Of a DNA stretch of 64,000 bases, positions 49,143-55,038 are shown piece after piece. The position numbers and the translations under genes were made by a program. Below the pieces are notes generated by a model, which saw nothing but the letters and a program-made list of their open reading frames with translations, had not been told where the DNA came from and searched no databases. How positions within the stretch are numbered: the stretch's first letter is position 1; each line of letters opens with the position of its first letter. This DNA is from Yoonia sp. (GTDB lineage Bacteria > Pseudomonadota > Alphaproteobacteria > Rhodobacterales > Rhodobacteraceae), in assembly GCF_017854565.1 (NCBI RefSeq), contig NZ_JAFMHJ010000005.1, forward strand, positions 1 through 64,000. The letters run 5' to 3'.

Positions 49143-49224
49143 GTCATCTCTCCCTTGAGGCTCGGGGCCTGTCTCTTTATGACGCAGGGGAAATCCGCTG
49201 CCCACCCTTCATAAAGGTTTGCCC

Positions 49225-50532
49225 ATGATCCCGCGTTATTCCCGTCCCGAAATGGTTGCCATCTGGTCACCTGAAACAAAATTCCGTATCTGGTACGAGA
49301 TCGAAGCGCACGCCTGTGACGCTCAGGCTGCCATCGGCGTGATCCCCAAAGCAAACGCCGAAGCCGTCTGGAAAGCCAAGGACGTGACTTTTGACGTGGC
49401 GCGGATTGACGAAATCGAAGCGGTCACCAAACACGACGTCATCGCCTTTCTGACCCATTTGGCCGAACATATCGGGTCCGATGATGCGCGGTTCGTGCAT
49501 CAGGGCATGACATCGTCCGACGTGCTGGACACCACGCTGAACGTGCAACTGGTCCGTGCGGCTGACCTGCTGCTGGCTGGCATGGACCGTGTACTGGCCG
49601 CCCTCAAGACCCGCGCCTTTGAACACAAGGACACCGTCCGCATCGGTCGCAGTCACGGTATTCACGCCGAACCCACGACGATGGGTCTGACCTTTGCCCG
49701 ATTCTATGCCGAAATGGACCGGGGTCGCACCCGTTTGATGACAGCACGGGCCGAAATTGCCACGGGCGCGATTTCCGGCGCGGTTGGCACATTCGCCAAT
49801 ATCGACCCCTCCGTCGAGGAACACGTCTGCGCGCAACTGGGCCTGACACCCGAACCGATCAGCACCCAGGTGATTCCCCGCGACCGCCATGCGATGTTCT
49901 TTGCCACCTTGGGCGTCATCGCATCCAGCATCGAAAACATAGCGACCGAGTTTCGCCATATGCAGCGCACAGAAGTGCTGGAGGCCGAAGAATTCTTTAG
50001 CCCCGGCCAAAAAGGCAGCTCGGCGATGCCGCACAAGCGTAACCCGGTACTGACCGAAAACCTGACCGGCCTCGCGCGTCTGGTCCGCATGTCGGTCGTG
50101 CCCGCAATGGAAAACGTCGCGCTTTGGCATGAACGCGATATCAGCCATTCGTCCGTCGAACGCGCGATTGGCCCCGATACCACGGTCACGTTGGATTTTG
50201 CCCTGCACCGGCTTGCCGGTGTGGTTGAACAGCTCGTGATCTATCCCGACAACATGCTGGCCAACATGAACAAATTCCGTGGCCTGGTGATGTCGCAGCG
50301 CGTGCTTCTGGCGCTGACGCAGGCTGGCGTCAGCCGCGAAGATGCCTACCGTCTGGTGCAGCGCAACGCGATGAAAGTCTGGGAAAAGGGTGCAGATTTC
50401 AAAACCGAATTGCTGGCTGACGATGATGTCCTCAAGGCGCTTTCGGCTGCTGAAATCGAAGAAAAGTTCGATCTTGGCTATCACACAAAGCATGTTGATA
50501 CGATTTTCGCACGGGTTTTCGGCGCAAGCTAA
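49225..50532 (+). CDS. purB: Adenylosuccinate lyase
   Basis: MIPRYSRPEMVAIWSPETKFRIWYEIE; GQKGSSAMPHKRNPVLTENLTGLAR. Confidence 0.97.
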   Translation: MIPRYSRPEMVAIWSPETKFRIWYEIEAHACDAQAAIGVIPKANAEAVWKAKDVTFDVARIDEIEAVTKHDVIAFLTHLAEHIGSDDARFVHQGMTSSDVLDTTLNVQLVRAADLLLAGMDRVLAALKTRAFEHKDTVRIGRSHGIHAEPTTMGLTFARFYAEMDRGRTRLMTARAEIATGAISGAVGTFANIDPSVEEHVCAQLGLTPEPISTQVIPRDRHAMFFATLGVIASSIENIATEFRHMQRTEVLEAEEFFSPGQKGSSAMPHKRNPVLTENLTGLARLVRMSVVPAMENVALWHERDISHSSVERAIGPDTTVTLDFALHRLAGVVEQLVIYPDNMLANMNKFRGLVMSQRVLLALTQAGVSREDAYRLVQRNAMKVWEKGADFKTELLADDDVLKALSAAEIEEKFDLGYHTKHVDTIFARVFGAS

Positions 50533-52009: not shown

Positions 52010-52074
52010 CTATCTAACCTCTAGGCTATCCATGAATATAAAAGCCTTGTCGTCTTTGCTTAGTTACACATACA

Positions 52075-52638
52075 ATGACGAACATCAAAGCCATGTACCA
52101 TGGTATTTCGAACGAACGGCCTTTGGCAACCGGAAAGCGAGTTAAAGACATGTCAACGTCGCAGCTAGAGATTAGTCAAGTGTTAGGCGAGTTAAACAAG
52201 CTGGCGCCTGCCGGGTATGCGCTTGGTTTTCATATCCAGTACACGACACCGAAGTTCATGTTTCAGACCTACAAAAAAGAATGGCTGGAGTATTACTCCC
52301 AGAACGGGCTTCTCATGTCTGATCCCATGGTGGCATGGGGTTTTGAGCAAGCTGGAGCTTGCCGCTGGTCCGGACTGCAGGATCCCGCCGGCGTTCTGGT
52401 CAAGGCAGCAGAGTACGGCATGCGATTCGGTATCGTCTGCGCATCCGACAGTGACGGTTCTCGGAGTATCGGTGGCTTTTCGCGCGAAGACAGGGAATTC
52501 ACTGACTTAGAAATATCAACAATCACAGCGGCCGTTGACGATTTGCATGCGAATACCGCCGATCAGGCCCAATTGTCGGATGAAACCATCGAGCAACTCA
52601 AGAAGATGTCCGTCATGGTCACGCATCCCGGCAGCTGA
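52075..52638 (+). CDS. LuxR-like autoinducer-binding domain protein lacking an HTH domain
   Basis: EWLEYYSQNGLLMSDPMVAWGFEQAGACRWSGL matches the AHL pocket of the adjacent LuxR; protein ends 'DETIEQLKKMSVMVTHPGS' without a GerE-type HTH; alternative start 52150. Confidence 0.88.
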   Translation: MTNIKAMYHGISNERPLATGKRVKDMSTSQLEISQVLGELNKLAPAGYALGFHIQYTTPKFMFQTYKKEWLEYYSQNGLLMSDPMVAWGFEQAGACRWSGLQDPAGVLVKAAEYGMRFGIVCASDSDGSRSIGGFSREDREFTDLEISTITAAVDDLHANTADQAQLSDETIEQLKKMSVMVTHPGS

Positions 52639-52686: not shown

Positions 52687-53736
52687 ATGGGAATTAAATC
52701 GCATATATCCGGGGCGCCGACCCTTAGCCGCAGACGCAAGGCCGCGATGATCGTGCAGATGATGATCAGCGATGGAGGCAGCCTGTCGTTGTCCCAACTC
52801 CCCGAATCACTGCAAGAACTGCTAACGTGCGAATTGGGGGCTATCCGGCTGGTGGACCGCAACACGGTCTCCGCTGTCGCAGACGAATTTGTGTCGGAAC
52901 TCGAGGCAATTGGCCTTGCGGCGCCCGGCACCCACGATGGTGCGGTACGCGCCCTTGCCGATCACCTCAGCCCAGATTTGGCAGAACGATTGCGCACGCA
53001 ACTCGCCAGTGTCCGCAATGGCGACCACTGGCCGCGCGTCATCGCATTGCCCATTGATCGCATCGTCAAGATCATGATGTCCGAAAGCATCGAAGTGTGC
53101 GCAGTGGCCTTGTCGAAACTTCCTGTGGCCAAGGCGGCAGACGTATTGATGAAAACCCCCGGTGATCGCGCCCGGCGGATCACCTTTGCCATGTCGCAGA
53201 CCGCCGATATTGCGCCCGATGCCGTGCGCCGAATAGGCGCCGCGCTGGCGCATGATTACGGCACGATCCTGCCCCTCGCCTTTGAAAAGGCGCCCGTACA
53301 GCGGCTTGGCGCGATCCTCAACTCCACCGCAACAGACACCCGCGAAGACGTTCTCGAAGGGTTGGGTGCCGCAGATCCGGATTTTGCAAGCGATGTGCGC
53401 AAGGCGATTTTCACCTTCAAGGACATCGCGTTGCGCGTCAAACCCACGGACATTCCCAATTGCATCCGCTCGGTCGATGGCACCGTCATGCTCACCGCCA
53501 TGGCAGCCGCTCTTTCGGGGGACGCGGCGCTTGTCAACTCTGCCGAATTCATTCTCGGCAGCATATCACAGCGGATGGCAGGCCAACTGCGCGACGATGC
53601 CGCCGAACGGGGCCGTGTCAACAAAGCCGACGCCGAAGCCGCCATGGGCGAGATCACCAAGGCGATCCGCGAAATGGTTGATACCGGCATGATCACCTTG
53701 ATCGACCCTGACGAAGCCGATGATGACCCGCAATAG
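52687..53736 (+). CDS. Divergent FliG-type flagellar motor switch protein
   Basis: FliG_M/FliG_C-like: CAVALSKLPVAKAADVLMKTPGDRARRITFAMSQ; AAPDFASDVRKAIFTFKDIALRVKPTDI-like segment; SAEFILGSISQRMAGQLRDDAAERGRVNKADAEAAMGEITKAIREMVDTGMITLI. Confidence 0.8.
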   Translation: MGIKSHISGAPTLSRRRKAAMIVQMMISDGGSLSLSQLPESLQELLTCELGAIRLVDRNTVSAVADEFVSELEAIGLAAPGTHDGAVRALADHLSPDLAERLRTQLASVRNGDHWPRVIALPIDRIVKIMMSESIEVCAVALSKLPVAKAADVLMKTPGDRARRITFAMSQTADIAPDAVRRIGAALAHDYGTILPLAFEKAPVQRLGAILNSTATDTREDVLEGLGAADPDFASDVRKAIFTFKDIALRVKPTDIPNCIRSVDGTVMLTAMAAALSGDAALVNSAEFILGSISQRMAGQLRDDAAERGRVNKADAEAAMGEITKAIREMVDTGMITLIDPDEADDDPQ

Positions 53737-53776: not shown

Positions 53777-54127
53777 ATGACGCAAACACCTGATCCTTTT
53801 CACGGCCACCGCTGGCACGACATGGGCGGCACGGCCGCAGGGCCCGTACCCGCCGACCAGCATGATTTCGCCCTTTGGGAAAAGCGTGTCGACGCGCTCA
53901 TGGTGATTACGTCTGGCAAGGGGTATTTCACCGTCGACGGCCTGCGCCGCGTGCTCGAAGACATGCCGCCCGCATCGTTCGAACAGATGTCCTACTACGA
54001 ACGCTGGATCGCCTCGGTGAACCAGAACCTTGTCGAAGCCGGGGTTTACACCACCGCAGAGCTGGCAAACCGCATGACCGCCGTCGCCGCACGTGGCACC
54101 ACATATGGCGAGGCGGCCAGTGACTAG
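53777..54127 (+). CDS. Nitrile hydratase beta subunit N-terminal half / thiocyanate hydrolase beta-like
   Basis: HGHRWHDMGGTAAGPVPADQHDFALWEKRVDALM...MSYYERWIASVNQNLVEAGVYTTAEL. Confidence 0.85.
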   Translation: MTQTPDPFHGHRWHDMGGTAAGPVPADQHDFALWEKRVDALMVITSGKGYFTVDGLRRVLEDMPPASFEQMSYYERWIASVNQNLVEAGVYTTAELANRMTAVAARGTTYGEAASD

Positions 54128-54407
54128 CCGACAATTCATGCGGGTCCGCGCCGATATGCCCCCCGGTCATGTCCGCACCCCCGCCTACCTGCGCGGCAAA
54201 TGCGGCTGGGTCGAACGCACCCTCGGTCCGTTCCCCAACCCCGAAGAACTGGCCTACGGCCATCACGGGCACCCCCTGCCCCTGCTGCGCATCCGCTTCA
54301 CCATGGCCGAACTTTGGGGGTCGGCGGCAGAACACCCCGATGACACTTTGGATGCAGAAATCTATGCGCATTGGCTGGAAAAGGTAGACGCCCCCCATGC
54401 CCCATGA
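54120..54407 (+). CDS. Nitrile hydratase beta subunit C-terminal half / thiocyanate hydrolase alpha-like
   Basis: FMRVRADMPPGHVRTPAYLRGKCGWVERTLGPFPNPEELAYG...PLLRIRFTMAELWG (SH3-like beta C-terminus); GTG start at 54120 overlaps upstream stop. Confidence 0.85.
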   Translation: MTSRQFMRVRADMPPGHVRTPAYLRGKCGWVERTLGPFPNPEELAYGHHGHPLPLLRIRFTMAELWGSAAEHPDDTLDAEIYAHWLEKVDAPHAP

Positions 54408-55038
54408 TCACCACGACCACCTCTCGCCGTCGGGCCACCCCTACCGCCCCGACGGTGACCGCCCCCTGACCTACTGGCAACAGATGGAAATCGCGATTCG
54501 TGAACTGCTCATTGAAAAAGGCGTGACGACTGCCGCCGAAATCAATGCCCAGATCAACGCCATGGATGCCCGCAGCCCGGCCAACGGCGCCGCCGTTGTC
54601 GCCCGTGCCTGGACCGATCCTGCCTTCCGCGCCGATCTGCTGGCCGACGCCAGCGCCGCCAGTCGCGCGATGGGTTATGATATCGGCCCGATGCGCCTGA
54701 TCGCGGTCGAAAATACCGCCGACGTGCACAACGTCATCGTCTGCACCCTGTGTTCGTGTTATCCGCGCAATCTGCTGGGCCTGCCGCCCGATTGGTACAA
54801 ATCGCGCGCCTACCGTTCGCGCACCGTCAAGGAACCGCGCAATGTGTTGGCCGAATTCGGCGTCACCCTCCCCGACCGCACGACCGTGCGCGTCCATGAC
54901 AGCACCGCCGACATGCGCTACATCGTGATTCCCGCCCGGCCCGGCGGCACTGATGGCTGGTCCGCAGGCGATCTGGCCCCACTGGTCACCCGCGACAGTA
55001 TGATCGGCACGGGGCTGGCCAAGCGACCCGCCGTCTGA
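54397..55038 (+). CDS. Cobalt-type nitrile hydratase alpha / thiocyanate hydrolase gamma-like subunit
   Basis: Metal-binding CTLCSCYPRNLLGLPPDWYKS; VLAEFGVTLP; RYIVIPARPGGTDGWSAGDLAPLVTRDSMIG; His-rich N-terminus MPHDHHDH. Confidence 0.93.
   Translation: MPHDHHDHLSPSGHPYRPDGDRPLTYWQQMEIAIRELLIEKGVTTAAEINAQINAMDARSPANGAAVVARAWTDPAFRADLLADASAASRAMGYDIGPMRLIAVENTADVHNVIVCTLCSCYPRNLLGLPPDWYKSRAYRSRTVKEPRNVLAEFGVTLPDRTTVRVHDSTADMRYIVIPARPGGTDGWSAGDLAPLVTRDSMIGTGLAKRPAV

Follow-up and report, generated by a model that had tools for sequence, protein, structure and literature searches.

The window analysed here, that is, the whole stretch of 64,000 nucleotides from Yoonia sp., contains a gene for a short LuxR-like protein that is divergent from a luxR-luxI pair. 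We refer to the short gene and its product as N and to the neighboring full-length luxR and its product as R. The positions of the genes, and of the sequence elements associated with N, are given in Table 1. The fliG gene that follows N is the only one found in this genome (a single FliG_C match), and the genome also encodes flagellin. Directly downstream of fliG, nitrile hydratase-like genes occupy positions 53777 to 55038, the first of which carries a beta-subunit N-terminal domain.

Table 1. Genes and sequence elements at the N-R locus (positions in the window)
Feature	Position	Strand	Basis and remarks
purB (adenylosuccinate lyase)	49219..50532	+	conserved flank of the module; synteny; D topology of Cude and Buchan 2013
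luxI, AHL synthase, 229 aa	50589..51278	-	Autoind_synth, E 1.2e-16; adjacent to R in the conserved module
R, full-length LuxR, assigned as CerM ortholog, 202 aa	51401..52009	-	Autoind_bind and GerE; in a clade with CerM (100/99)
Likely promoter of N, sigma70 type (TTGTCG, 18 bp, TACAAT)	52047..52076	+	sequence and alignment
Leader element, 20 nt, TTGGCAACCGGAAAGCGAGT, just upstream of ATG 52150	52123..52142	+	near-identical in most Yoonia loci
N, HTH-less AHL-binding-domain protein, assigned as CerN ortholog, 162 aa	52150..52638	+	start corrected from 52075
Conserved C-terminal tail of N, ...LSDETIEQLKKMSVMVTHPGS, in place of the HTH	52558..52635	+	from about residue 137
fliG	52687..53736	+	FliG_N/M/C; 48 bp downstream of N, arrangement conserved

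Domain content, start site, and conservation of N

A Pfam search of the open reading frame at positions 52075 to 52638 returned Autoind_bind (PF03472; E 1.8e-11) as the sole credible domain, and no GerE or other helix-turn-helix (HTH) match appeared even at E<=1. The same holds for the genus: Autoind_bind was matched by 29/29 aligned Yoonia N proteins and GerE by none of the 29. A canonical LuxR combines Autoind_bind with a GerE HTH, as R does, and N lacks the latter. The initial annotation, which had described N as an HTH-less AHL receptor divergent from luxR-luxI, is thus confirmed. The pocket spacing that it had reported (W-x3-Y-x8-DP-x13-W) is present in N and in R alike. The AHL pocket of N is intact, including G113, and residues W57, Y61, D70, P71, and W85 occur in all 38 of the N proteins compared. 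It had also been argued that a frameshifted HTH could not be hidden downstream. Indeed, the stop codon of N lies at positions 52636 to 52638, and we found no ORF encoding an HTH, in any frame, in the 48 bp that separate it from the fliG ATG at 52687.

The start codon at 52075, on the other hand, had to be abandoned. The first base of this ATG belongs to a -10-like TACAAT (52071 to 52076), and relatives align only from Met26, which corresponds to the ATG at 52150. The stretch in between is conserved as DNA, with reading frames that differ among relatives: TTGGCAACCGGAAAGCGAGT is found in differing frames, sometimes before an in-frame stop, so this stretch is noncoding. Together, these alignments and the conservation across differing frames define N as the 162-aa product given in Table 1. 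The TACAAT and the TTGTCG upstream of it (52047 to 52052) are likely the promoter of N, as judged from an alignment of 29 Yoonia intergenic regions in which CTTGTTGC and TAnAAT blocks are conserved. The leader element is longer than a ribosome-binding site, and weaker copies of it are recognizable in other genera (GCAACC..AAAGCGAG). A search of the element against Rfam gave nothing credible, and no partner site common to the genus emerged when we looked for a trans-acting RNA able to pair with it. N and fliG are possibly cotranscribed.

N is a real, conserved gene. An HTH-less N protein is encoded in 35 of 36 congeneric genomes, mostly with a length of exactly 162 aa. The median dN/dS of N was 0.044 (seven comparable pairs), and that of the neighboring LuxR was 0.027 (ten pairs); by these ratios, N is under purifying selection (omega about 0.04). 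The conservation extends to the C-terminal tail; in a profile alignment (to residue 153), its start matches the region where the HTH of LuxR begins. The last 13 residues of N are LKKMSVMVTHPGS. Among the 29 Yoonia sequences, the mean column entropy was 0.63 bits for residues 150 to 162 versus 1.16 bits for residues 21 to 135, so the tail is more conserved than the sensing domain. Resembling tails occur in other genera. AlphaFold2 predicted a confident sensing domain (pLDDT 86), with the last nine residues below 50. The best matches of the predicted fold were the solved LuxR-type receptors CepR2, RhlR, TraR, and QscR. N would have kept the ligand-binding and dimerization fold and lost the DNA-binding domain, apparently once and early in the family.

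Relationship to CerN and CerM and distribution in the Rhodobacteraceae

One of the loci that we opened (L132) has cerN divergent from cerM, followed by cerR and cerI. We take its genome to be that of Cereibacter sphaeroides, as its reaction-centre L protein matched the query at 100% identity. CerN of C. sphaeroides is an HTH-less antagonist that binds the LuxR-type regulator CerM only with AHL and strips it from DNA (PMC11655674). The Pfam scores at L132 are close to the published ones (CerN, 65.7; CerM, 46.2/40.2; CerR, 128.9; CerI, 282.8), and its CerM carries the W57F substitution, as does the published CerM.

A sensing-domain tree, built without the long-branch CerR-type rows, resolved three groups: an N clade including CerN (99/97), an R clade including CerM (100/99), and the GtaR/LuxR1 class (97/83). 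In a first tree, which contained the CerR-type rows, the N clade was unresolved, though not rejected (p-AU 0.55). The genome of the window has a second luxR-luxI pair on another contig (C72, L001, positions 446 to 1974), and its LuxR formed a long branch with CerR in that first tree. N is 37% identical to CerN, and R is about 38% identical to CerM. N shares several sequence characters with CerN: an Autoind_bind domain without an HTH, an intact AHL pocket, a place in the tree with CerN rather than with CerM or GtaR, and a location next to a CerM-type LuxR gene in divergent orientation. By these sequence characters, N is the ortholog of CerN and the adjacent LuxR is the ortholog of CerM. Two other origins of N were rejected. 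A Thioclava-type LuxR is slightly closer in identity, but it belongs to the GtaR class, and descent of N from it is unsupported. N is not a recent duplicate of the neighboring LuxR either, since the two are only 34 to 35% identical (35% over 150 aa) and N belongs to a separate, ancient clade.

We surveyed 298 Rhodobacteraceae genomes, nearly all of different genera, with a cutoff for CerM-type LuxR of >=238 bits; the scores of a few solo paralogs fall slightly short of it, and those of the GtaR class are about 208 and less. This gave 58 CerM-type loci in 56 genomes, all of which were opened. An adjacent N-type gene was present at 56 of the 58 (the exceptions being in genomes G146 and G354), and it was divergent in 53. 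luxI was in view at no fewer than 47 loci, and fliG lay downstream on the same strand at no fewer than 17; both counts are lower bounds, as the flanks were short for some loci. Two genomes have two CerM-type loci each, with N beside every copy. Genome G168 has two CerM/CerN-type pairs (L180 and L151) and several further LuxR matches. Members of the N clade occur in 54 genomes, which represent almost as many genera. Among the matches listed, only one genome with N has LuxR proteins of other classes while lacking the CerM type. An N gene without R occurs in genome G305 (L184, 7910 to 8413), where a 15-kb stretch contains no CerM-type LuxR or luxI. The initial annotation had called for a check of whether relatives have the same HTH-less ORF beside luxR-luxI; such an ORF is encoded in 35 of 36 congeners and, in the wider family, beside nearly every CerM-type LuxR gene. 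Judging from this distribution, the CerM/CerN pair is a common, ancient, family-wide module.

A CerR-type LuxR stands beside CerM/CerN in Cereibacter and its relatives (L132, 4106 to 6916; L160, L162, L167, L174, and L176), with CerI mostly in view. Elsewhere a local luxI takes this place, and the synthase partner appears to have been exchanged.

Proposed mechanism and rival explanations

The evidence on CerN and CerM comes from AHL-dependent pull-down, electrophoretic mobility shift, and reporter assays (PMC11655674). CerM occupies DNA when AHL is absent, and CerN together with AHL displaces it: this combination weakens CerM-DNA binding in vitro and lifts repression by CerM in E. coli. Through ctrA, this pair controls motility in C. 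sphaeroides (PMC11655674). By orthology, we consider it probable that N is a CerN-type antagonist that acts by AHL-dependent removal of R from DNA. R would bind its operators in the absence of AHL; once the adjacent LuxI has raised the level of AHL, N would bind the signal, and AHL-bound N would form with R a heterodimer unable to bind DNA properly, so that the R targets are released. The counterpart step in C. sphaeroides is the relief of repression of ctrA and motility. In the window, N is followed after 48 bp by the sole fliG of the genome, which makes motility a plausible output of the switch here too. A search of the window for the published CerM-site motif TNT(N5)AAGACA(N2)T with one mismatch gave 8 matches versus 4.6 expected, with no clear enrichment.

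The pair in Yoonia may not work exactly as in C. sphaeroides. W57F was proposed to be important for the low AHL sensitivity or affinity of CerM (PMC11655674), and this substitution is absent from 37 of 38 CerM-type R proteins, including the R of the window, which keep W57. R may therefore bind AHL itself, and its logic could differ from that of CerM. Either an asymmetry like that of CerM/CerN has another cause, or most R proteins also sense AHL.

Among the other explanations for N, a pseudogene or an assembly error, in which a LuxR gene has decayed or is frameshifted, might be read from the likeness of the tail to the first part of the HTH region. A constant length in dozens of independent genomes, a dN/dS of about 0.04, a tail more conserved than the domain, and a clade spread over 54 genomes rule this out for practical purposes. 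The initial annotation had offered three functions: an AHL sink, a heterodimer partner, and a receptor signaling to another partner. As a sink, N would merely titrate the signal and raise the quorum-sensing threshold, leaving R untouched. The pocket is intact in every N examined, and a protein without a DNA-binding domain could buffer ligand. However, a sink would be expected alongside AHL systems of every kind, yet N tracks CerM-type loci (56/58), and among the matches listed only one genome without a CerM-type LuxR has N. Titration also leaves unexplained the strongly conserved tail and the direct, AHL-dependent contact between CerN and CerM. We therefore regard the sink as improbable. The heterodimer partner is well supported by orthology and fits best, as CerN is a characterized AHL-dependent antagonist of a CerM-type LuxR.

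Such a partnership need not be antagonistic. N and R could form a heteromeric coregulator, in which R is redirected to other promoters, or N could be an AHL-dependent coactivator. N and R are retained together family-wide and their divergence is correlated (distance r, 0.66, in part a reflection of common species history); the conserved tail might offer a contact surface, and the W57 kept in most R proteins makes AHL binding by R possible. The loss of CerM-DNA binding in vitro and the relief of CerM repression in E. coli upon addition of CerN and AHL speak against coregulation, which we consider unlikely, to the same degree as the sink. Antagonism of R by N remains our preferred reading. A more far-reaching reading, in which the CerM-type LuxR of Rhodobacteraceae needs N as its obligate signal-sensing subunit and the two proteins together make up one AHL switch, the tail contacts R or another partner, and the linkage of N to fliG wires the switch directly to the flagellar motor, is put forward tentatively, as a possibility with the odds against it.

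Comparison with known systems

The arrangement of the locus matches the D topology of roseobacter quorum-sensing loci, which consists of fliG, luxR, luxI, and the adenylosuccinate lyase gene (Cude and Buchan 2013, PMC3824088): fliG is opposite to luxRI, and adenylosuccinate lyase lies downstream. Roseobacter sp. CCS2 and L. vestfoldensis SKA53, which are represented among our loci (L043 and L060), are among those surveyed in that article. For most D-topology loci it lists an extra locus tag, which we interpret as a second luxR; in those passages of the article that we searched, the second luxR is neither described as HTH-less nor linked to antagonism. A possible link of this topology to motility was remarked on and named as a future avenue (PMC3824088). 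Thus, the D-topology locus was known already, as was the CerN type from one species, described in 2024 by a study that examined synteny in no more than three further Rhodobacterales (PMC11655674). In the papers searched, we found neither the family-wide extent nor the N tail, the leader element, or a linkage of N to fliG within a CerM/CerN module. Roseobacter luxR-luxI pairs of the CerM type are better treated as three-gene systems, and AHL reporter work restricted to luxR and luxI from such loci would overlook the likely antagonist. For D-topology roseobacters, a coupling of quorum sensing to motility also becomes testable.

The TrlR/TraS proteins of Agrobacterium, to which N had been likened, are a parallel in function, in that N would likewise be a truncated AHL receptor acting on a full-length LuxR-type protein. 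The likeness fails in origin and in logic. PMC11655674 quotes TrlR as a copy of TraR with 88% identity, whereas N is an ancient paralog of its neighbor at 34 to 35% identity and not a recent, near-identical copy. The logic is reversed as well, since TraR depends on AHL for DNA binding and a CerM-type regulator occupies DNA in its absence. GtaR of R. capsulatus and LuxR1 of D. shibae form a related LuxR class from the same family; unlike N, they are full length with an HTH, in their separate clade.

The closest known system is CerN/CerM (PMC11655674), with which N and R share the pairing of an HTH-less Autoind_bind protein with a divergently encoded, complete LuxR, the same two tree clades, and an intact pocket. 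The Yoonia locus differs in its neighbors, which are a local luxI, purB, and fliG rather than cerR-cerI; in the W57 of R, which is F in CerM of Cereibacter; and in the THPGS tail that N carries, unlike CerN.
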